DNA of 64,000 nt from assembly GCA_950295325.1 (NCBI GenBank), contig OX485805.1, positions 16,913,501 to 16,977,500 of the forward strand. Reading direction: 5' to 3'. The position numbers and the translations under genes were made by a program. Source of the stretch: Polytrichum commune (taxonomy: Eukaryota; Streptophyta; Polytrichopsida; Polytrichales; Polytrichaceae). Under the pieces are notes generated by a model that made no database searches, was not told the origin of the DNA, and was given only the letters and a program-made list of their open reading frames with translations. Positions 17,687-30,477 of the stretch are shown here, in pieces (within the stretch, counting starts at the first letter, position 1; every line of letters starts with the position of its first letter).

Positions 17687-17700
17687 CAAAACCTCTTCAA
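17687..17700. repeat. Target-site duplication, left copy
   Basis: CAAAACCTCTTCAA, identical to 30464-30477. It immediately precedes the (GAA)n that is the reverse complement of the element's 3' tail. Confidence 0.93.
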
Positions 17701-17720
17701 GAAGAAGAAGAAGAAGAAGA
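17701..17720 (-). repeat. (TTC)n tail of the retrotransposon
   Basis: (GAA)n on the plus strand, so the element RNA ends in (UUC)n. Some LINE groups end in short tandem repeats rather than poly(A). Confidence 0.8.
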
Positions 17721-17747
17721 ACTCCGGTCCCTACTAGGGACCGGAGT
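17721..17747 (-). promoter_or_regulatory. Perfect 3'-terminal hairpin of the retrotransposon
   Basis: ACTCCGGTCCC, a TACTA loop, then GGGACCGGAGT: an 11-bp stem with no mismatch, directly next to the (TTC)n tail. Terminal stem-loops beside a microsatellite tail are known reverse-transcriptase recognition sites in several LINE families; that role is inferred here. Confidence 0.8.
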
Positions 17748-18246
17748 GAATAAAGTGTCTGTTCGTAGGACAACCGTGGCCGTACCCCAGGGTAGCAGCG
17801 TTGGGTGTAATACTACTTCACCCTTTGTAGGGAGTAGACACTATGTTAGTAACCGATGTTTTAACCGGTTGAACCGGGGGGGGGGGGAGGGCGGTGTGTA
17901 GGGTGCATGGGTTTTAATTTAGAATTATGTGGGTTTTGCTACTATGTTGGAGACGAGAAGCGTGCGTATTTGTTTGAGTATAAATGATGGTTGATTGTGT
18001 TGTTGGTCGCCAAGTCATGGTTCCAAGGTTGGTTGGATAAGGACGTGCGTGTTGTATTAATACGGTCCGGGTTCGATTCGCGTTGAATCCGTCTGAGCGT
18101 GTTAGTGCAATACACTTTGACTTGGTGCTGCAAGTGAGTTAATCATAGGCAGGAAAGTTATACCAACCAGCCGGCTACTCCCCGCCTTTCTGAGCTATAG
18201 GTGGTAACTTAATAACTAGTGGTCTGACCACTACCCCTCTCTAATT
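17748..18246 (-). other. Retrotransposon 3' UTR
   Basis: About 500 bp between the last stop codon (18247) and the terminal hairpin. It includes a G-rich run at about 17877-17888. On the plus strand, GGTCCGGGTTCGATTC at about 18063-18079 resembles a tRNA B-box. Confidence 0.7.
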
Positions 18247-21200
18247 TTAGTTATGATTTTGTAGGTCTGTGATGGGTTGTCTATTTTCTATTCGTCTTTT
18301 GTGGATTAATATTGAGTGTGCATATTGGATGGCAATTATGTTAAGTTGTTTGAATGTGTTCCTAATTTGTGATGTGGGGAGTTTGAGCTTTGTTTCAAGT
18401 TCGTTCATTGAGGGGATGTGAGTTGTGGCTCGGGCACCAGATGCTAATACAATAAGTGGGGCTACGTTCCAACCCTTTGCGATGATATTATTTATGAGTG
18501 GTTGATATTTTGTGATTTTTTGATTTATGGTTTCAGTGGAGAATATGTCATTACAGTATGTGAATTCTATAAATTGAACTGTAATTTCTGGTGTGGGTGC
18601 TTCTGGTGGTGGGGAATCGTAAGGGTGCCCTATAATGCATAGAATGTCGGGTTTGAGTCTAGCGTTACAATGACATCTTTGGGTACCACATGTGCAGGGT
18701 AGTAACCATGTTGGTACTGTGTTGTCTTGGGGTAGTTCATTATATGTACCTGCGTTCATGAGTATGTAGTGTCTTGTTATTTTATTTGAGACAAGAAGTT
18801 TGCGTATTTCCCATACCGCTTTGTTATGTCTTTTTGTAATTAGTGCGTGGATGTGTTGTTGTTTGCACTTAAGGAGTATATGTAGCCATGTATCCGCTTC
18901 TAATGAGTTGCAAATGTTACATGTATGGGATGGGTATGCAATTCTACCAAAAAAGAGTTGTTTTCTAGCTTGTCCCATGTATTGTCCGGTTCGGAATTTT
19001 ACTAAGCACGTTTTTTGCTTGTCTGAGATAGCCGGGTTGGTCCAAAAGTCATTTGATAATGTTTTGTCGATATCTTTATTATCAAGCCATTTATGTAATT
19101 GATGTGTTTGGGTTGCTAGAATGGATAGGTTGTGTTTTTTATCGTGTTTGATGATGTATTTGCCAAGGTGTCGGATGGGGCCTTTGTCTGGTGTTTCTTG
19201 CATTGAATGCCACCAATCTTTTTGGAGGTAGTATGGCGTGGGGTGCGCATGCTCATGTGTGGCTATAGCGTCTCTATGTTCTAATTCACAACCCAATTTT
19301 GCTAATTTATCGGCTTGTTCGTTACCTTGAATGTTTGTGTGGGCTTTGACTTTGTGTAGTGTGGTGGTTTGTGTGCGGGATTGCAACATCTTAACTATGG
19401 ATTCTAGTATCTTTTTATCCGGGTGGCTATTGTGTAGTGTTGGGTGTTTAGTTTGCGTGTTCAGGAGGTATAAGACATTGAGACAATCTGTAAAGATATG
19501 TGCCGGTTCATTCCGGTATGTGGTAGTGAGGAGGTGGAGGGTGTGGTGTATAGCCATAAGTTCTGCCCTAAGTATATTTTGGAGTCCGGGTAGTCTTTCT
19601 GTGATTTTGAGGTTTTTGAAAGGGTTATATATACCATACCCTGCTTTTTCTCTTCTCCAATGCCCTCGGGTTATTTCTTTGGGTGGTATGAATGATCCAT
19701 CCGTGTAATAGCAAAATTGTGGGTGGTATTTGAGGGGTAGGCATATGTCTTGATTCGTGTATATGGGAGTGTTAGAAGTTTGGTTTGTAAGTGGATGGGG
19801 GGGTGGGTATATAAGTTGGGACCATTTCTTGCTTCTATTTACTAAGGTGTTTATAGGTGTAGGCGGTGCCGGTGTGTGAAATGATGTGGGTATTTGGAGG
19901 GTAGTGCTAATAGTGTCCATACGATTCGCATATTCACATGATCCGGGGGACGTGTGTTTGTGGTGTATACATAATATGCGGATGTCATGATTTTCTGTTC
20001 GTGGGTTAGTTCGTAATTCCGGGGGTATTGTGGGTTCATCATATGCAATGGTGTCTGCTTTGAAATGTGAGATAACGTGAGAATCTGGGAAAGGGCCTTC
20101 ATGGGGGTTGAGGTTGTGGTACCAGTTTGGGTCAGTTGTTATGAGTATTGTGATTGTGTCTGGGTTATGCTTGGCGGCAAGTCTAGCCCAATGTAGGGCT
20201 TGTTGGGTGTCTTTTTCTGTGTGCGGGTGGGCATATCCCATCCCTGCCCATTTATGTTGGAATGCTGTGCCTATTGACCCGAATACCTTGTCCCTAGAAA
20301 ATGGGGAGGAGAATTGTTTCAATGTAGTAGGACATGTGATTGGTGATGAGAAGTAGGAATGGGTGATGTGGAAGGAGTCAATGATGTTTTCTATGATGGC
20401 ATTTGGGAGGGTGTATTGTGAGAGTTTAAGGGGGTCGTTTTTGGGCATTCTATATTTGTATCTTTGATACAACCATGCCACTTCTTTTTCAAAGGATTGT
20501 ACGGGGGGCTCTAAGTTGTGTGGTTTGTTTAATGCATTTTGGTATTGTTCCCATAGCCATTGTAGTCTTAGTTCGGGAATGGTAATTAGGTGGCGTCCGT
20601 CATTATCATAGATGTGTGATTCGCCATATTGGCTTTGAATGGTGTGTTGTGTGCATTCAATGTCATTATCTGGGTTGCATTCATTGATATGAATGTGGCA
20701 TAGGGGTATGTCTTGTGGTGGGCGGACATATCTTGTGTCTCTCATTTGTGTTTCACTAAAGTTTATTTGGAGAATGTTGGTGAAGTGTTGGTGTTGTTTT
20801 TGGGTGTAGTATTGTGTTAAGAGTAGTATGTTGTAATTTATAGTGTTTTGGTTGTTCCAAGGGAATAAGTCTCTTTGTGGGAGCCATTTATGGTATTTGG
20901 TTTCGTTAGGAAGTACCCATTGGCAAAGGTAGGATGTGTAGTGTTTTGTGATTTTGTGTTTGTCTTTGTATGTGTGAGGGTGGTCGTTTATTATAGATTG
21001 TATTGGGAATTGTATGTGGTTTTGTTGGATGTGTAAGGGGGGTTTTGGATATTCCGGTAGTGGGGGTGGCATGGGGTGTATGTTATGTCTACTCAGGCTT
21101 GTGTTTATATGATGATTTTGTATTTTGTAGGCGTCCTTGAGAGTATTGGGTGTCGTATGTGTTAGGCAAGTATTTAGGCATTGGTTATGACAAGGGGGTT

Positions 21201-21666
21201 TACAAAATATCTTACGCGCGTGTTCTAGGGCGGTTTTAACTAGTTTAGTGGGTGGGGCATAATAGTACTTGAATTCATCATTTGTCATGAGGTGCGTGCC
21301 ATTGGGGTGCGTTATGTGTTTTAGTTCGGTTATGTTGTGTAAAATTAATTTATGTAAGTATTTGAGGGAAGTGGTGGGAGTTAGTGTGGGTATATGGTGT
21401 GCTTGACTCATCCATTGTGTCTCTAATGGCGTAGGGTGAAGGGGGAATTTTGCAAGTGTACTTCTAAGGTGAGTGTCACTAGTTTTTTTGAGTAGGTATA
21501 ATGTTCTAGTAATTGGTGATCTCATGCAATCATGTGGGGTTATTCGTGGTAAGTGGAGTGATCCGCCATGTTTGGCAAGGATATGTTTGGTTACTCCATT
21601 ATATATTCTTCCAAGTCTTCCTTGGTCGTTGAGGGCATTGATGAGTTGTTCTCCGACACATGTTAT
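18247..21666 (-). pseudogene. Retrotransposon ORF2, 3' part: methyltransferase-like, RNase H, zinc and restriction-like endonuclease domains
   Basis: An open frame of more than 1,090 codons. After the end of the reverse transcriptase comes a region (about 20390-19900) with YFSSPITC, SPFSRDKVFGSIGTAF, TITILITTDPNWY and YDEPTIPP, resembling PCIF1-type adenine methyltransferases; the usual NPPF position seems to read AHPH. RNase H follows (about 19720-19270) with YTDGS, LRAELMAI, FTDCLNVL and KAHTNIQGNEQADKLA, so all D-E-D-D and His residues are present. Then C-x2-C-x9-H-x4-C with RHNKAVWEI (about 18920-18800), as in R2/NeSL-type elements. Last is the PD-(D/E)XK-like part: LKPDILCI (18640-18665), VQFIEFTYCND and QKITKYQPL. 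The frame joins the upstream reverse transcriptase across an A7 run near 21678. Confidence 0.85.
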
Positions 21667-23227
21667 ATAGGCGTTTTTTTAGTGAGAAAGCTTCGGTGCC
21701 GAACATATTTTGTGGAAGTTGTGTAATGGCGTTTGATAGGCATTTCGGGAGGCCACATATATTTTTGTGTAGGGCAATTATTCTTTTATCTAGTTTTTTA
21801 ATAGCGGGAAGTGAGTATGGGACGGCATAAAAGCTATAGGCTATGCCGGCTCTTATGACTGTGTCAACCATTTGTATTTTTTGCTTCATGGTGGCTGGGC
21901 ATGTGGTTAGGAGTTTACATTGTTTGATTAGTTTGGTTGTTGTGATGTGCGTTTGTATTTTCCATTGTAGTGATGGAACTAAATTGATTCCGAGGTAAAT
22001 ATATGGTTCGTGTTGGCTTAGTATCGGTATTGGTTGGTTTCGGAAGTTAATATTGATGGCCGTTAAATGTGTTTTAAAGGCTTGTGCATTTAGTTTGGAT
22101 TTATTTGGGCATCCTGTGATTGCGCATTTCGGGATGCCGAGGTCCATTCCGGCCCATTCGCAATATCTATCTAGCTTGTTCAATTGTTGTTGGATGGATG
22201 TCGTATTGTTGGATATGACCGCTAGATCGTCCGCATAGGCCGCGGAGCTTAATTTTGTATTAGAGGTTTTAAAGGTGTATCCGTGGGGTCCGCGTTGTAG
22301 CCATCTAAGTAATGGTTCGAGAAAAATGATGAAGAGGTAAGGGCTTAGCGTATCTCCTTGTATGGTTCCCCTTTGTATGGGTATGGGTAGTGTTTTATCG
22401 AAGTATTCCCCGATAAATGTGGTGATTGATTGTGAATAGATATTTCCTACTAGTGCTATGGCATCTTGCGGATAACCGAGGTCTTTCATAATGGCGAGGA
22501 GTCTAGCATGGTCGATAGAGCCAAAGGCATTTTTGAAGTCTATGTATAAGATGTAGATGTCTTGGTTAGTGAGTTGTGCATCTTCTAATGCGGCGATGAG
22601 GGTTTGAAGTTGTCGGGCGGTGCATCTTTCAGCTCTAAAGCCCTCTTGGCTATCATGTAGAATTTGGTGTTTTTCCCCGTATCAGGAGAGTATACTAGTG
22701 AGCGTGCTAGTAAATAATTTGTAAATAGTGTTGGCAAGTGCAATAGGTCGATGGTTGGTGAGGTGATGGGGGTTGTCTTTTTTGTATAAGAGTATCGTAA
22801 GGCTCGTTTTCCAAGCTTCAGGTATTTGTTTTTGTTTATAACAGTGGGTAAAAAATAATAGTAGAAGCTTGTGGAATCTTGGCGGCATATTTTTTAGTAT
22901 GGTGTTAGGAATTTGATCGGGTCCCGGCATTTTTCCGTTGGTAAGGTTTTTAAGACATATATCGTATGTTTCTTGGTCTAGGTATGTGTGTAAGGGGGTT
23001 AAGGCTTCGCCTCTCTTTTCTATAGTAAATCCGTTGAGGTCGTGCCACGGATATTGTCTAACTCCACATAGGCATTGTTGTGGGTGATCGGGTTGATAAT
23101 GGCATGTTGGGACGGTTGGTCTATTGCTTATGGATTGTTGCACATGTATTTCTTGTGTGATGTCTGTGGGGCTTGTAAGGATATTATTGAATCGGTCTAT
23201 TAGGCAGTCTAAGGGGGGGGGTGTCAA
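21599..23227 (-). pseudogene. Retrotransposon ORF2, reverse transcriptase
   Basis: Motifs in order: NGKMPGPDQIPNTILK, LLYKKDNPHHLTNHRPIAL, SQEGFRAERCTARQL, YILYIDFKNAFGSIDH, IQGDTLSPYLF, and the catalytic AAYADDLAVI at about 22213-22243 (YADD box), then GMDLGIPKCAITG and YIYLGINL. All catalytic aspartates are present. One in-frame TGA lies just before the YGEKHQ segment (22682-22684). The frame from the endonuclease changes in a C9 run near 23213-23221, and the frame into the downstream part changes in an A7 run near 21678. Confidence 0.93.
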
Positions 23228-25010
23228 TATTCTTGAAGACTTTTCTATTAATTTTCTTGGGACTTTTGTTATATAATTGTTGGTATTTGCATATGGTTTT
23301 TTTGATTTGTTGGGTTATGTAGTTTGTTGTTATTTTGCGGGCTTTGTTTTTAGCTTCTTTGGCGATGTTGGCTAAGTTGGCTAACCATGTTTCGTATGGG
23401 TGGGAAAGATGTGGAGGTGGGGGTATAGTGACAGAGGTATGGTTGTTAATTTCTTGTGTGATAATGGGGTGAATTCGCCAATTTGGGTTGTTTTTTATAA
23501 TATATATTGTTTTTCTAATAAGATGGTAGGTAGATAGATGTATTTTCCATTCTTTTTGGAGTTTCTTTGGAAGGTAGCCTCTTTGTTTAGCAATTTTGTT
23601 TGATAGCGTGGGAATGGGTGGGGCACTACATGTTTCTAGGACGGTGGTTGTAATGTTGTCGGTGAGGGAACTTATTGATTGACATGCTAGTTGCCATTGT
23701 TCATTTGTCAAGTGGTAATTTTCTAACAATTGTATGAGCTCGTCAATTTGGTTTGAATTGTCCTCGAAGAATTTAGTGTGGAAGGTTTCTAGGTTTTCCT
23801 TGGGTATAGGGTTGAATATCCTAGGTGGTGGGTCGGGGGTTGTGATTGGTTCTCTTGCTATAAGTGTGTTTGGGGGTATTCGGAGTTGTATAGGTAGATG
23901 ATCGGAGTTTAGGCGTGTTGTTTGATTTGTAGTTGAGGTGAATTGGTGGTTATGTGGGGTTTTGATGTAAAATCCATCTATTAGGCTATTTTGTGTGTAA
24001 TTATGTCCTCCTTGTCTTGAAAATGTTGTGTTTGTCGGGATGTATGTTAGTTCTAGATTGGTTGTAAAGGATCGCCAAAGGTAATCTTCCGGTTGCGGCG
24101 GTGTGGTTTGTTGGTCGTTTTGTCTTCCAATCAAAGCAACGTCTCTATTAAAATCTCCACATATGATGTATGCGTGATTAGGGTGTGTATTGATTTGATG
24201 AGTGATGTTAGTTTGTATGATGGGGATGAGAGGTAGGTCCTCCTCATGTGAAGGCATATATAAATTAATTAAGAGCCATGGTTGTAAAGGTTGGTTTGCT
24301 ATGCGCGTTACTTGGAGGAATGGGGATATGTTTGCGGGGGTGGGAATTTTGGAAAGATTACCTGGAAATGCATGTTTGTTGTGTATTAGTAGTAGTAGTC
24401 CTCCTCTATATCCTCTATATGTCATTCGTTGGCGTGTGATTCTTGTGATGTTGTGTGTGTTGTTGAAGAAAAGTTTGTATTGAGGGAATAGGTGTTGTAT
24501 ATATTTTGTGGATTTAGTGGCGGAAAGCTTGGTTTCTTGAATGGTGATGATTGATGGGGGTTGTTGGGGGTCCGTGATTAGTTCTTGTAGACATGGCATG
24601 ACAATGTTTAGTGAGGAGGCATTCCAGGTTATGGCGTATGATTCTTGACTAGTTAGCGGGACCGGGTTGGGCGAGGGTGTTGAATGGTAAGTAATGGGGG
24701 GGTTAGGACGTGTGTATTCATTTATAGGTTCGTTATATCTTAGTGCCTCCATTAGTAGTTGTCGTGGTAGATATGAGAATTTTTCTTGTAATTTTTCCAT
24801 ATTAACGGAGTTATGGTTTAGATGTATATAATCATATAATTGTTTGTGTATTGTGTTGGGAGGGGTGATAGTGTCTTTATATATATGACAAAATTGTGTA
24901 TATGGGTGTGGGGTGTCTATGTGTTTTTCTGGTGGGTTTTGCAATCTTGACATTCTTTCTAATAGTTGAGATGTCCATTCTTGTATTGGTTGGTGGTGTA
25001 GGAGTGTTAT
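23184..25010 (-). pseudogene. Retrotransposon ORF2, APE-type endonuclease
   Basis: An AP-endonuclease-like domain with its usual landmarks in order: ITWNASSLNIV, TIQETKLSA (catalytic Glu), YRGGLLLLI, WLLINLYMPS, IICGDFNRDV (about 24131-24170), and LNSDHLPIQLRI (about 23880-23915; catalytic Asp-His). These residues nick the target to prime reverse transcription in LINEs. A lysine/arginine-rich linker leads into the reverse transcriptase. The frame differs from that of the upstream 2A linker, with the change somewhere in 24877-25010 where both frames are open. Confidence 0.92.
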
Positions 25011-25275
25011 ATGTTAGAGTGGAGGGACTAATGGTTACGATTATTGCATAGATGACCCTTTGGGGAGGATGGTGATTATATTGTTGTATGTGATTATACA
25101 AGTACGGGAGGGAGTGTATTATTTGTGTATGTAGCGGATGTGTATTTTGGAAAAGGGGTTTGATTGTTTCGGCCAAGTGTTGGTATTCTGGGTGGAATTT
25201 GATCGTACTTGGTAGGAAATATGTTGTTTGTCTTCTCTTGTGGTCAAGGGGGTGTGTTTTTAATAGGTCAGGCAT

Positions 25276-25345
25276 AGGTCCTGGGTTAGGGTGGATGTCA
25301 CCTCCTAGTAATATGATTATGGAGTTGTTCCATGTATAGTAGTGT
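25276..25345 (-). other. 2A-like motif, copy C (GDIHPNPGP)
   Basis: Preceded by YYTWNNSIIILLG and followed by MPDLLKTHP. His-Pro replaces the Glu-x pair of the consensus. It is in frame with copy B, about 417 bp further on. Confidence 0.75.
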
Positions 25346-25692
25346 GTAACTTTAGTTTTTGGATGTTTGAGGTGGGTGTGGGTTGTGTGATGGATGGTGC
25401 TTATATGTGTTATGAAGATTATAATTGGTGTTTGGAGTGTAGATTGGTTGAGTGGGATGGGTTGGATGGTGTTATGGGTGTTATATGTGTGGTTGGGATG
25501 ATTATATGGGAGGGTGGTTGTAGCTTTATGGTATGGGTGGTATGTGTGGTATCCATAAAATGCTTTTAGTGAAGTGGTATGTGGGGTTAGGATGGTGATG
25601 TGGGTGAACGTGCATGAGAGAATAATCATGGTGATTATTATGTAAACTCTTTGTGTGTATTCTTTGGGGAGGTTTTTGAGGATGGTTGAAAG

Positions 25693-25770
25693 CGGCCCCG
25701 GGTTTAGTTCAATGTCTCCGTGGAGGAGTATGAGTGTAGAGTTGTTCCAAATGTAGTATGTTATGATTTT
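25693..25770 (-). other. 2A-like motif, copy B (GDIELNPGP)
   Basis: An exact match to the 2A consensus, preceded by YYIWNNSTLILLH. Lies about 233 bp downstream (in element sense) of copy A. Confidence 0.85.
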
Positions 25771-25925
25771 AATTATTGGTTTTTGTGGTGTGTGTGTGTT
25801 ATGTAGTAGAAGTTGCCTATATGTGTCATTATATTAATGGGGGTGATTGTGTGGGTTGTGTTATTGTGATTTGTGTATAGGTTGTGTATTTGTTTATGTG
25901 TGATGTATGTACATATGTGTGATAG

Positions 25926-25993
25926 TGGGCCCGGGTTAAGTTGTATATCTTCACATAGAAGAATGAGTGTGGAGTTGTTCCATGTGTAATATT
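25926..25993 (-). other. 2A-like motif, copy A (EDIQLNPGP)
   Basis: Preceded by WNNSTLILLC. It matches the 2A consensus D-[V/I]-E-x-N-P-G-P except for Gln at the Glu position. 2A peptides make the ribosome skip the Gly-Pro bond, separating the flanking proteins. Confidence 0.75.
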
Positions 25994-26700
25994 GTATGTT
26001 TTTGGTTTTTGGGGTTTTTAAATGTATGTGTGTTATGTGACAAATATTGCCTATGTTGTTGATGTTGTTTATTAGTGTGTGTGGAGGGGGGGATTTTGGT
26101 GGTATTATGGTTTGTGCGGAGTTTGTTATTTTGTGTGTGTGGGTATAGTTGTGGTGTGGGGAAGTGGTGGTAGATGTATGGGTCATATATGTTGTGTGGG
26201 GGATATATGTGATTGTGTGGGTTATGTTTTGTGATGTTAGGAGGTTGGTGTGTACGTATGTTGTCATGGTGAGAAGTGTAATTATTATGGTGTATGCTTG
26301 GTTGGTAGAGGGTGTAGTTTTGTATTTGGGCGTGTATGTGGGAGATTTTGCTCCTAGTGTGGTTATTTTGGACGTAAGTGTGTATCCTTTATTTATATGT
26401 AGGAGGGAGGTACATAATAGATGTATGAGTAACATCCATGAGTATATTATGTGTGTGCTATTCATGGAGGTGGTGTGGTATGTTATATGGTGTGGACTTG
26501 GGGGGTTAGTGTGTATGTATGTTATTAAAGAAAGAAGTGTAATGAATGAGATACATGTATGTCTATCGGTGGGGGGGACTTTGTGAATGCCTATGTATGG
26601 GGCAAGTTTACCCAACATTATTGTGAGCTCTTTATTATATATAAAAAAAGTAATACAATATGTAAGAAAAAGAGACCATTTGTGATGTCCTAGGTGGTCA

Positions 26701-29700
26701 CTAACCATTAAATGCGTTGGGTCCTTGGTGATGCATTTGTGGGTTAGTGTGGAAGCCCGGGGGGGCTTGTAGGGGGAGTGGTGGGGTGTTCGCATGGAGA
26801 CCTTGCGGTATCGAGGGTGGAGCGGTTCTTTGTATGATTTCCGGTGCGGCGGCGGAGAGGCCATTCACCAAGCCTTGCATTCGGAGGTTGGATTGTTGAA
26901 ATTCGTGGGCAATCGTACCAAGGAGCGCTTGAAGATTGGCGGTGTGATGTGTGATCGTGGCCGTAGTTGCTTCGAATCGGCGATCCGTGTGGTTGTTGAT
27001 GGTGGTGGTTAGCGTACCAAATTTTTCATCCAACTTGTCTTCAAACTCCTTCATGGTTTTGGTAAGGTGCTTTTCGGTGAGGGGCGGGTTGGAGTTGGTG
27101 GCATTGCTCATGGCTTGTATTTTATCCGCTATCGCCTCACGTACGGGTGCTTGGGCTAGGCGAATCGATGTCTTGTTAGGGTCCGTGCCGTCTATGCTCC
27201 CGCGATGAGGTATGAAATCTATGCGCCGGCCGAGGATGTAGACCGATTTGTGAAGCCATTCCGTGTAGACCGCGGCGTTGAGACATTGGATATGACACCA
27301 ACCCGCTTGCTTGTCGTTTTGGGTGTTGTTGCCGAAGCCAATGCCAACTATGTTGTCCGCTCCGAATGTTTGTTTGATGACCTTCGAGATAGTGGTTTGG
27401 GACTCTCGTTGTGGGAGATTATTGGCGACGAGCGTGGTGCTAATGCGTAGCTCCGATGGGTTGCCGGTGCCGCGATCACGTGTGACGCTAACTTGGAGCT
27501 TCTCTTGATTGAAGATGATTCCATCTTTGAGCACGTTGTCCCTAACCTCTTCCGTAGTGAGTGTAAGAAAAGCGTAGTTTTTATCTACCTCCGGTTTGGT
27601 AAGTCCCATAAACTCATCTTGTTTGCCTATGTAATAGCTCTCATGTACTAATGCTTCAAAGATGGTAAATGCATGTTCATGTCGGAGGGTTTCTCCTTTG
27701 ATGTGTAGACGTAGATTGCTAGCCTTGGTGACTAATTCATATCCTTTCTCTACCTTGCCTATTACTCTCTCTCCATCCTCCATTTCCATGACAAATGCCC
27801 TATTGCCATGTAAGAATGCTAGTCCATCTCTCTTGGGGTGTAATAAATGCACTTTTATGAAGCCCGCCCAATTCTTAGTAACGGCATTGGTTCCTATGTC
27901 AAGAGGGTTGGAGTATGTGTTACCAAGTGGGATGTCCATTTGTTGAAGCCGTTCTAAGCATGCTTTCTTCGCCTCATGTCGGCTAATGCTCTTGAAACCA
28001 TGGTCGAAGCGGATGGTGATGTGGAACCCCTCGGAGAGGCCGGTGGTTGGGTTGATCTTTTCTAGTCTTGGAACTTGGGTGAAGTGGAGGTGGTGCCCCG
28101 GGACCGCATCCGGTCTCTCGCTCGGGTAGTATGCTTGAGGGACGTGTGGGAATGCTCTTCGAAGGGTGCGGAATTCGAGGATCTCTCTTGAGGGGGTCCC
28201 GATCATGGCAAACTCCTCATTGGTGCGGGTTTCCCTTATGATCTCGGTTCCTCTATGCAATGCCATGGCCTCATGGATGGGAAAACCGAGCCACATGTGT
28301 GCCACTATGTCGATGCTTGGAATTGCTACTTTGTTGCGGGTGATTGGTTGCTTACTAGTGCCGGTCACGAATGCATGTGTGTCCATCTCACTCCTCCTTC
28401 TCTTGGCGCTTTGAGTGTCGGTGGTGTTGTCATTGTGCATGGATGTTGGAGGGGTCCTATCGGCTAGGTTGATAGCTTCGAGTCGTGATGACGGTATGCC
28501 GGCTTGATTGGGAGTGGCCGCATACTCGTCCCTTGATGTGGAAAGTTGAAGAGAGCTCCCGCCGTGCTCGGGTGAGATGTCCACTAATTGCATGTCGATA
28601 TCATAATCTTGTGAGGGAGGGGCCATCTCCTTCACGTTGGTAGGTTGGTTTGCGTGCTGCCCATTTATGGTTCTCTCTTCTTCGTCTTCATCACTGTAGC
28701 TGTCTAGTAGAGCTCTCCGTCTGGAACCGCTCCTTGTGTTTCTGCCTTCGCCGCTCTCGCTCCTCTTGCTGGAACCGTTAGATCTCCGGGTCCCGGTCCC
28801 TAGTCTGTAGCTGCCGGTTCGTCCGGCCTCGACCCCTCCTTTGGCTCTCTCGCTGGCCCTGCCTGCTATCTCCGTCGTGGCTCCTCCTCGACCGGTGCCT
28901 TCGACGCCGGGCTGCTCCTCTTCTTCGACGTCCATCCTCCCTGTGCTCCTGCCGGCCTTGCTCTCGCTTCTCTCTGGCCTGCTGCTATGTAACTGTTGCA
29001 GACGTCGACCTGACTGTCGCTGCCGTCCCGTAAAGTTTGTGTCTGTGCCGTTCCTTAGTTTGGTTGCCGAATCTGCTCCATTACTCTCTGCTGGGGTCTT
29101 GTGGGCTTCTCTGCTGGTGGCCATGATGGTGGGTAGGGAGGTGTAGAAGAGATGGATAGTTGAGAGTGTGGGAGGCGAGGGTATTTGAGTGAGAGAGTGT
29201 GGCCTTGTATGTAGATGGCGGCATGTTGTTTTTGGATGTGTGAGTTGTCTTGTGAGATTTGCTTTGGGGGTTTCGGCGATTCTAGGTTGGTGCAGGTTGT
29301 GTGTTGTATTTTCGGCCTTGGTATGCCTTGGTGAGGTGGGTTTTTTCTTAGATTGGGATGTTGCATGCTTTGTGTGTGGGGGGTTTTTTGTTGGGTGGGT
29401 GGTTTTTAGGTTTGGGGGTGGTGGGTGTGTGTAGGTGACTGCCTTTTTGTTGGATCTTGTGTGGTTTTTGGCGGATTTCTGACAGAGGGAGTGCTGGACC
29501 ATCATCATGTGGCGGGGTTTGGAGCTCCGATGTGTTTTTTTTGGAGGTAAGTTTATAGATAGTTTGTTTTTTGTTTTGTGGTGGCTTTTGGTGGGAATGA
29601 GTGTTTGGTGAGTGCAAGTGGCTTTACTTACCTTGATGTGTGTGGTTTTGTGTTGTGTGGGTGGTGGCGGCGATATGGATGGGTGTGGCATACATTCCGA

Positions 29701-30435
29701 GCTTGGAGGTGGTCTTGTGGTGGAGTAGTATCGACTTGATGAGTAGGGAGTTGATGGTTGTATTGGGTGTTGGGGGTAGCTTGGTGGGTAGATTGTGGGA
29801 GGTGGTATTGATGAGTTGGTATTTTGGAGCTTTGAGTGGCAACCTCTTAGTGGATAGATTGTGGGTGGTGTCTTTGGTGGGTGATAGCTTGGTGAGTTGA
29901 TGATGGGGGTGAGCTTTGATGGAAGTGCATTGTGGTGTGTGCAAGCACACAAGAGGATGGTGCTTATTAGCACCCATATTATAAGTAAGGGTGAAACCCT
30001 AGTTTTGTTGATGGATGTTGGTGAAGCTCCGCTCCTACCCTCCTTCACTCCTAGATCTAGATCTGGTCTACTTGCCTCCTCGTTCTTGAGTTCAGATTCT
30101 TGATGTCGATCTGCTGGGCTTGCTTGCCGAACTGCTGGACTTGCTTGCCGAACTGTTGCTCTTTTCGGAGCTCTCTGTTTCAGGTGTACGGTATTAGGGG
30201 CGCCGCAGATTGTTCGGGCCGCAGTGTATTCATAACCTCCTTCTGTCGCCTTCGTCTCTCTTCTCTCGCTCAATGCTGTTAGGTACTGGCTGATCTGCTG
30301 TTGCTTCTGTTCGGATCTTCCTCGCAGACTTCGTTGTTCTCTTCTCTCGCTCAATGCTGTTAGGTACTGGCTGATCTGCTGCTGCTTCTGTTCGGATCTT
30401 CCTCGCAGACTTCGTTGTGGCTGTCTTCTCTCCAT
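26701..30435 (-). CDS. Retrotransposon ORF1 protein
   Basis: An uninterrupted frame of 1,244 residues from an ATG in excellent context (ACCATGG, 30435), 28 nt from the element's 5' end. A second candidate ATG at 29124 would give 807 residues. The first 440 residues are basic, Pro/Thr/His-rich and contain two 27-residue tandem repeats near the start. Next is a Ser/Arg/Gly/Glu-rich linker. The C-terminal half has an RRM-like fold at about 985-1090 (TTLVANNLP as RNP2-like, KQAGWCHIQ as RNP1-like) and a coiled coil at about 1118-1180 (KEFEDKLDEKFGTLTTTINN). By analogy with other LINE ORF1 proteins it should bind and multimerise on the element RNA. No CCHC knuckle seen. Confidence 0.8.
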   Translation of the reverse strand: MERRQPQRSLRGRSEQKQQQISQYLTALSERREQRSLRGRSEQKQQQISQYLTALSERRETKATEGGYEYTAARTICGAPNTVHLKQRAPKRATVRQASPAVRQASPADRHQESELKNEEASRPDLDLGVKEGRSGASPTSINKTRVSPLLIIWVLISTILLCACTHHNALPSKLTPIINSPSYHPPKTPPTIYPLRGCHSKLQNTNSSIPPPTIYPPSYPQHPIQPSTPYSSSRYYSTTRPPPSSECMPHPSISPPPPTQHKTTHIKVSKATCTHQTLIPTKSHHKTKNKLSINLPPKKTHRSSKPRHMMMVQHSLCQKSAKNHTRSNKKAVTYTHPPPPNLKTTHPTKNPPHTKHATSQSKKKPTSPRHTKAENTTHNLHQPRIAETPKANLTRQLTHPKTTCRHLHTRPHSLTQIPSPPTLSTIHLFYTSLPTIMATSREAHKTPAESNGADSATKLRNGTDTNFTGRQRQSGRRLQQLHSSRPERSESKAGRSTGRMDVEEEEQPGVEGTGRGGATTEIAGRASERAKGGVEAGRTGSYRLGTGTRRSNGSSKRSESGEGRNTRSGSRRRALLDSYSDEDEEERTINGQHANQPTNVKEMAPPSQDYDIDMQLVDISPEHGGSSLQLSTSRDEYAATPNQAGIPSSRLEAINLADRTPPTSMHNDNTTDTQSAKRRRSEMDTHAFVTGTSKQPITRNKVAIPSIDIVAHMWLGFPIHEAMALHRGTEIIRETRTNEEFAMIGTPSREILEFRTLRRAFPHVPQAYYPSERPDAVPGHHLHFTQVPRLEKINPTTGLSEGFHITIRFDHGFKSISRHEAKKACLERLQQMDIPLGNTYSNPLDIGTNAVTKNWAGFIKVHLLHPKRDGLAFLHGNRAFVMEMEDGERVIGKVEKGYELVTKASNLRLHIKGETLRHEHAFTIFEALVHESYYIGKQDEFMGLTKPEVDKNYAFLTLTTEEVRDNVLKDGIIFNQEKLQVSVTRDRGTGNPSELRISTTLVANNLPQRESQTTISKVIKQTFGADNIVGIGFGNNTQNDKQAGWCHIQCLNAAVYTEWLHKSVYILGRRIDFIPHRGSIDGTDPNKTSIRLAQAPVREAIADKIQAMSNATNSNPPLTEKHLTKTMKEFEDKLDEKFGTLTTTINNHTDRRFEATTATITHHTANLQALLGTIAHEFQQSNLRMQGLVNGLSAAAPEIIQRTAPPSIPQGLHANTPPLPLQAPPGFHTNPQMHHQGPNAFNG
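30254..30418 (-). repeat. 81-bp tandem duplication at the start of ORF1
   Basis: Two nearly identical in-frame copies encoding RSLRGRSEQKQQQISQYL followed by TALSERRE. A 27-residue periodic unit near the element's 5' end. Confidence 0.85.
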
Positions 30436-30463
30436 GGTGCTCCGGCTTCCCACTCCGGATCGT

Positions 30464-30477
30464 CAAAACCTCTTCAA
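30464..30477. repeat. Target-site duplication, right copy
   Basis: CAAAACCTCTTCAA, identical to 17687-17700. Confidence 0.93.

Follow-up and report, generated by a model that had tools for sequence, protein, structure and literature searches.

Judging from sequence comparisons, the three NPGP motifs found in the 64-kb window (the whole stretch of DNA analysed here) are very probably StopGo/2A sites carried by ORF2 of an APE-type non-LTR retrotransposon, where they would part a leader from the endonuclease–reverse transcriptase (RT) protein and where their arrays would have been built by recombination. NPGP occurs exactly three times in the six-frame translation of the window, in the modules that we call m1, m2 and m3 (Table 1), and the octamer ends agree with the positions given in an earlier sequence-only reading of this DNA.

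The three modules and the element that carries them

Each module is 22 residues long, with the octamer at its end. Compared with the core (D/G/C/N)(V/I)ExNPGP, m2 is exact, as had been claimed for the middle copy; m3 is a variant with His at position 14 (p14) and m1 a variant with Gln. The outer motifs had been said to vary only at the Glu-x pair. This description fits their p14 residues, but m1 also carries Glu in place of Gly before Asp in the window copy, a residue that is Gly in the copies L014, L015, L023 and L042; the run upstream of m1 ends with CE in the window copy and with CG in relatives. By eye, there is a likeness between the LLLLSG class and the upstream sequences STLILLHG and SIIILLGG, whose ends are His-Gly and Gly-Gly and not Ala/Ser/Cys-Gly.

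The insertion associates an apurinic-type endonuclease and an RT with a target-site duplication and a 3′ simple-repeat tail, i.e., the features of an APE-type non-LTR retrotransposon. Among solved structures, the nearest to the RT of the copy L016 is R2 (E 1e-31), L1 being more distant (E 5e-20). The PCIF1-like stretch matches solved PCIF1 (6irx) weakly (E 0.65); at the place that corresponds to the PCIF1 catalytic motif, which we take to be NPPF, the LINE stretch seems to read SSPF. A literature search with most subscription journals outside its scope returned no report of PCIF1 together with non-LTR retrotransposons. The post-2A domain, in its L003 version (L003:855-1499), gives an all-helical AlphaFold2 model (pLDDT 83) without clear match in the PDB using Foldseek (best E 1.4). 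The linker has no relative below E 0.36 among solved structures, and no Rfam family reaches its gathering score in the 64-kb window. Near the ORF1 start, two 81-bp tandem units, 99% identical, occupy positions 30257-30418, and just 28 nt (30436-30463) separate the element 5′ end from the ORF1 ATG.

Table 1. Coordinates of the LINE insertion, of its parts and of the three 2A-like modules in the window.
Feature	Position	Strand	Basis or remark
Whole LINE insertion, 12,763 bp	17701..30463	minus	both ends read; 14-bp exact target-site duplication each side; 3′ (TTC)n tail
Target-site duplication, 5′ side	30464..30477	.	TTGAAGAGGTTTTG, only two matches in window
Target-site duplication, 3′ side	17687..17700	.	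exact 14-bp repeat TTGAAGAGGTTTTG
ORF1	26701..30435	minus	open frame; its ATG follows the element 5′ end by 28 nt
Proposed ORF2 start codon, overlapping the ORF1 stop: ATGGTTAG	26701..26708	minus	scan for TTTAATGG[AT]TAG
ORF2 leader, several hydrophobic stretches	25992..26708	minus	253 codons from ATG to first 2A octamer; 17-residue hydropathy up to 1.94
m1	25991-25926	minus	YYTWNNSTLILLCE-DIQLNPGP; YYTWNNSTLILLCEDIQLNPGP; B-type 2A, p14=Gln, p11=Glu
m2	25758-25693	minus	YYIWNNSTLILLHG-DIELNPGP; YYIWNNSTLILLHGDIELNPGP; B-type 2A, exact consensus
m3	25341-25276	minus	YYTWNNSIIILLGG-DIHPNPGP; YYTWNNSIIILLGGDIHPNPGP; chimeric 2A (from alignments), p14=His
Post-2A domain start (MPDLLKTHP...)	24877..25275	minus	conserved in relatives; frame ends early in window copy
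Apurinic-type endonuclease domain	23889..24632	minus	PF14529 E 2.8e-8; PF03372 E 4.4e-4 (below curated cut-off)
Reverse transcriptase (profile position 35 onward)	21983..22666	minus	PF00078 E 5.6e-24
PCIF1_WW-like stretch, between RT and RNase H	20149..20529	minus	PF12237 E 2.5e-9, above curated cut-off
RNase H	19288..19716	minus	PF00075 E 9.7e-15

In the window, ORF1 terminates in TTTAATGGTTAG, and the ATG within this sequence probably starts ORF2. Our scan for a Met located a short distance upstream of a conserved Lys-Trp covered 21 sequences, L009-L028 and the window element, and could report only places with a Met; all of the 13 places obtained read TTTAATGG[AT]TAG. Of the 10 sequences in which both frames were located and the ORF1 end is intact or almost intact, 7 have ORF2 shifted by +1 with respect to ORF1 (8 including L023); in L017 and L020, both ORFs share one frame, with no overlap. 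A long frame upstream in L014 was considered as ORF2 and dropped: L014 does not match L015 upstream of their common part, and looks like a 5′-truncated insertion.

The window copy itself is broken. Its enzyme part is spread over several frames; m1 lies in an ORF at 25773-26864, and m2 and m3 lie in another frame, in an ORF at 24877-25833. A ribosome coming from the ORF2 ATG would find a stop between m1 and m2 and would meet m1 alone. The proposal of three motifs in series thus fails for the window copy as it stands, but it is sustained by other copies, in which two, three or four modules are carried in one frame. This is the case in L014, L015, L023 and L042, the frame of L023 running from the ORF2 ATG.

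Copies across the genome and the origin of the arrays

In the assembly (408 Mb in 64 contigs, seven long ones accounting for nearly the whole), the pattern G-D-I-E-x-N-P-G-P is present at 67 places, versus 0 for the reversed pattern, and D-[VIM]-x-x-N-P-G-P at 460 places, versus 5. Site statistics were established on the first 100 of these 460 places (96 on C1 and 4 on C2). Among these 100 sites, p14 is Glu in 59 and another residue in 41 (Gln 20, His 14, Lys 5, Arg 1 and Tyr 1). When same-strand neighbours less than 1,500 nt apart are grouped, the 100 sites listed form 85 clusters, of which 73 hold one site, 10 hold two, 1 holds three and 1 holds four. Within these clusters, 14 of 15 spacings are divisible by three (binomial P 2e-6), an in-frame spacing that does not by itself exclude a stop between two sites. 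Glu occupies p14 in 2 of the 27 clustered sites versus 57 of the 73 single ones (Fisher P 9e-11, hand-counted), a contrast that is not an independent test because the sites are related by descent.

Two enzyme lineages were told apart by their post-2A residues and by blastn. Lineage A, marked by MPDILRTHP-like residues following the 2A, includes the window element, L012, L021, L025 and elements with a single 2A, for instance L003; lineage B, marked by LSTILKNLP-like residues, includes L009, L016 and others. The A-type copy L025 is 91% identical to the B-type L016 over 2,890 nt, a match that ends 116 nt past the first 2A (blastn); further downstream, their sole long match is at 64.5% over 1,302 nt. 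The enzyme part of L025 is 96% identical to that of the window. Since L025 matches L016 in its 5′ part and the window in its 3′ part, B-type 5′ halves are joined to A-type enzymes. Another joint is seen in L022 and L029, where two 2As are 54 nt apart; L043 carries a B-type, an A-type and then a B-type 2A in one frame, and L042 four modules in one frame, with spacings of 234, 417 and 306 nt.

Between m3 and the third module of L042, identity is 95-100% from -417 to -15 and 93% over the last 15 bases to the Asp codon. Between m3 and the fourth module, it is 100% over the octamer and 92-100% to +300 (then 0.37 ungapped from +300 to +400, presumably because of an indel), versus only 0.28-0.44 upstream of -15. 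The m2-to-m3 spacing in the window is 417 nt, as in L042. Because the 5′ match is to the third module and the 3′ match to the fourth, m3 results, on this alignment, from a crossover inside the Gly-Asp-Ile codons with the loss of one 306-nt unit, and is thus a chimera combining two adjacent 2As of an element with four modules. We infer the direction of the crossover from the third-to-fourth arrangement, with its 306-nt spacing, that L042 and L021 have in common.

These alignments indicate that tandem 2A numbers change by recombination. From the sequence comparisons, arrays of two to four sites are explained by fusions of the 5′ part of one lineage (A or B) with the 3′ part of the other, at their 2As or close to them, and by recombination between neighbouring 2As; the basal state was probably a single 2A immediately upstream of the post-2A domain. 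We also propose, tentatively and giving it rather less than even credence, that the 2As are exchange seams at which lineages swap their 5′ halves, and that arrays of attenuated (Gln/His/Lys) sites set the amount of leader-free enzyme in a land plant. The 5′ halves would be swappable at the 2A because the enzyme is freed of anything attached upstream, and a reason that we offer for the gain of 2As by retrotransposons is that the 2A makes such an exchange harmless to the enzyme.

Single 2As with other following residues (MPNVLKEHP; KHNLLLNHP-like) are carried by L004, L031 and L034 and by the relatives P0061-P0063, P0075, P0080, P0104 and P0115. These following residues suggest that the LINE family has more than two branches.

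Conservation of the octamer and competing readings

The loci L001-L041 were picked with the GDIE-NPGP pattern, so that their matched octamers are a biased sample. The table of 61 modules (NPG core, upstream hydrophobic pair and enough flank, L006 and L007 being omitted because they duplicate L012 and L013) served for description and for module pairs, and not for conservation counts. A query with the post-2A domain, blind to the motif, produced 150 scored places out of 672 candidates, 31 of them on the largest contig, C1. The octamer is located at most 60 nt upstream in 25 of these 31 C1 copies, 6 having no match to the pattern. Open frames around the motif-blind places reach 2,924 residues; one of 2,663 residues (C1:51775372-51776016 of G000) has a 2A reading DIKPNPGP, with Lys at p14.

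A database search with the single-2A ORF2 protein of L003, in which the motif makes 8 of the 545 query residues, gave 143 matches, the best 120 being listed. Conservation was counted in 63 of 121 relatives, the best BLASTP stretch of the 58 others not covering the site. [DGCN][VI]xxNPGP is kept in 51 of these 63, with 41 exact (D/G/C/N)(V/I)ExNPGP, 5 His and 5 Gln at p14; it is broken in the 12 others, mostly by one change. In the same 63 relatives, the mean share of rows keeping one residue is 0.87 for the core columns, versus 0.56 and 0.58 in two adjoining stretches, and the N, P, G and P columns reach 1.0, 0.89, 0.94 and 0.98. The reading of 2A-like motifs in a LINE is supported, and the expectation that NPGP is kept in relatives is borne out by both the database and the motif-blind counts. 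The L014 linker matches 30 proteins. Over the 139 relatives, [DGCN][VI]xx[NH]PGP is absent in 70 (many too short upstream), present once in 63, twice in 5 and three times in P0125. P0126 has two sites, DIETHPGP and DIEIHPGL, in which His replaces Asn at position 16, a rare variant that showed activity in a published assay.

Selection was estimated by comparing the window modules over 22 codons. Silent versus replacement change is 12.0/14.8 versus 5.0/51.2 for m1/m2 (one-sided Fisher P 4e-7), 10.5/14.8 versus 7.5/51.2 for m1/m3 (P 1e-4) and 11.5/15.0 versus 9.5/51.0 for m2/m3 (P 9e-5); in the 20 codons after the octamer of the same pairs, this contrast is absent (P 0.42-0.93). In distant families, dN/dS over the last 45 leader codons, 2A included, is 0.09 for L016/window, 0.18 for L016/L013, 0.19 for L013/window and 0.10 for L013/L017, about 9 of the 45 codons being imposed in L013 and L016 by the pattern used to find them, and none in window m1 or in the first module of L017; the other computable segments of these four pairs give 0.23-0.65. 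Among close pairs, the 2A stretch is not lower in three of four (window/L023 0.77, L024/L025 0.40, L016/L021 0.32), L016/L024 being the sole one with the contrast, with zero replacement changes in the 2A stretch. In four A/A pairs, pN is 0.00-0.16 in the octamer versus 0.45-0.56 in the preceding 14 codons, which have diverged as elsewhere. By these values, the core alone is kept among A-type 2As, and the StopGo-like signals look kept by selection.

Other readings of the motif have to be weighed against these data. The linker is rich in Thr, Asn, His and Pro, and such a biased composition could in principle yield the motif by chance or as a low-complexity feature; yet, when the linker residues are shuffled 20,000 times, NPGP appears even once in just 120 cases. 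Together with the 460 genomic sites against 5 for the reversed pattern, the shuffles rule out this origin, to which the silent-site pattern of the window modules is also opposed, and its probability is practically nil. NPGP could also be kept for another reason if the Met that follows it in A-type modules were the true start of the endonuclease protein, by internal initiation. NPGP-M is indeed found in most A-type modules of the module table and gene models start at precisely this Met in 11 of the 121 relatives, but we read these 11 models as gene callers choosing the first ATG. The Met column is kept in only 0.60 of the 63 relatives, well below the N, P, G and P columns, and B-type and other relatives carry Leu, Lys, Arg, Ile and other residues there, which makes internal initiation very improbable.

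The hydrophobic residues near the 2A had also been seen as a targeting signal. In this reading, as in sea-urchin NLR proteins, they would double as a signal sequence, skipping deciding between ER and cytoplasm; since the leaders hold hydrophobic stretches, failed skipping could send the enzyme to the membrane. Each of the 10 leaders has a stretch with a 17-residue hydropathy of 1.37-2.05, and some copies, i.e., L012 and L021, do have a hydrophobic stretch near the 2A (1.74, ending about 28 residues before the octamer). However, the run adjoining the 2A is short, and its hydropathy is 0.13-0.55 in those 7 of the 10 leaders that have it among their top five stretches. The sites are internal, 237-290 residues after the ORF2 ATG, and an N-terminal 2A forming the hydrophobic core, as in SpNLR-type signal sequences, was not found in the leaders examined. 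Because the adjoining run is so low in hydropathy compared with the leader tops, the targeting idea is weak for the 2A itself, and we consider a signal-sequence role unlikely. Nor would the linker be cut into small hydrophobic peptides, as had been suggested: in L014 and L015, the pieces between sites are of 78 and 139 residues (spacings of 234 and 417 nt) and, by eye, mostly polar with one hydrophobic stretch. A more serious possibility, which we hold to be arguable without favouring it, is that activity is confined to the last 2A before the post-2A domain, the modules upstream of it being passive leftovers of 5′ exchange and duplication. Single-2A elements carry exactly this last site, and some upstream modules show changes that putatively kill activity (AIHTNPGP in L012, L021 and L025; NLGP in L018; Glu before Asp in window m1). 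Against it, window m1 and m2, like several upstream modules elsewhere, have more silent than replacement change within the motif only, spacings stay in frame in 14 of 15 cases among the 100 sites listed, and intact sites occur in tandem in 6 of the 139 database relatives, many of these 139 being too short upstream to show them.

Predicted products, activity and known 2A systems

According to the StopGo reading, translation of ORF2 would start at the ATG overlapping the ORF1 stop, probably by termination-reinitiation. The ribosome would then make a leader of 240-290 residues, release it at NPG^P and continue with a second product starting with Pro and made of the post-2A domain, the endonuclease, the RT, the PCIF1-like stretch and RNase H. 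The sites would thus likely serve to detach the endonuclease-RT protein from its leader, and a working 2A would make in-frame additions upstream of it tolerable by separating them from the enzyme.

Published assays help in predicting which sites could work. In the survey PMC12846837, examples with His at p14 or p16 are more than 95% active, an L-rich upstream motif supported StopGo, and older mutants with Gln at p14 had 56% or 26% activity; Ala at p12 abolished the activity of the FMDV 2A, and chimeric 2As were often inactive (PMC12846837). Because of these variant activities, m2 and the single 2As are expected to be active and m3 probably active, with window m1 weak; m1, m3 and the middle module of L021 (AIHTNPGP) may nevertheless be weak or dead. 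More speculatively, sites in series whose core Glu is replaced by Gln, His or Lys may be leaky individually and act together.

Among animals, non-LTR elements bearing a 2A include Rex1, Crack, L2 and CR1. More generally, 2A sites are described in LINEs of trypanosomes (L1Tc/Ingi) and of animals and, as in these APE-type elements, the octamer found here is in frame in an element encoding endonuclease and RT (PMC4981915, PMC5972666). Unlike them, the present element seems to have a land plant as host, and it carries one to four sites per ORF2, an ORF1 with start-stop overlap, RNase H and a PCIF1-like stretch; Gln, His and Lys are common at its p14, and its 5′ parts are exchanged at the 2A. In Paavivirinae picornaviruses, the number of serial 2A-NPGP also varies, with about 50-150 residues between them (PMC11512398), but these are viruses and not retrotransposons, and the comparison made here is that of the motif. 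Sea-urchin NLR 2A signal sequences, in a eukaryotic genome too, likewise have a 2A adjoining hydrophobic residues (PMC4981915); they lie at or near the N-terminus, whereas here the 2A is internal and the adjoining run short. The overlapping stop and start recall the ORF1/ORF2 coupling of SART1-type elements (PMC5972666), a coupling that in the present case is predicted from the sequence.

In plant viruses, a 2026 survey obtained no evidence of StopGo (PMC12846837), and no natural StopGo use in land plants is reported in the literature surveyed. Our literature search (titles and abstracts, most subscription journals being outside) revealed no apparent tandem 2A in retrotransposons, no 2A in plant LINEs and no report of a 2A peptide in LINE retrotransposons of moss. 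The plant host, the tandem arrays, the exchange at the 2A and the frequent Gln, His or Lys for Glu therefore look new. If the StopGo reading is true, natural StopGo recoding would be placed in a land plant, and the natural 2As in which Gln, His, Lys, Arg or Tyr takes the place of Glu (41 of the 100 sites listed), some of them in series, would offer material on the tolerance of the core.

A land plant with swimming sperm is suggested as host by two other features of the window, which elsewhere encodes TPR proteins, with a TPR gene that we take to be NPG1-like, together with a CEP104-like TOG stretch, CEP104 being a ciliary protein.
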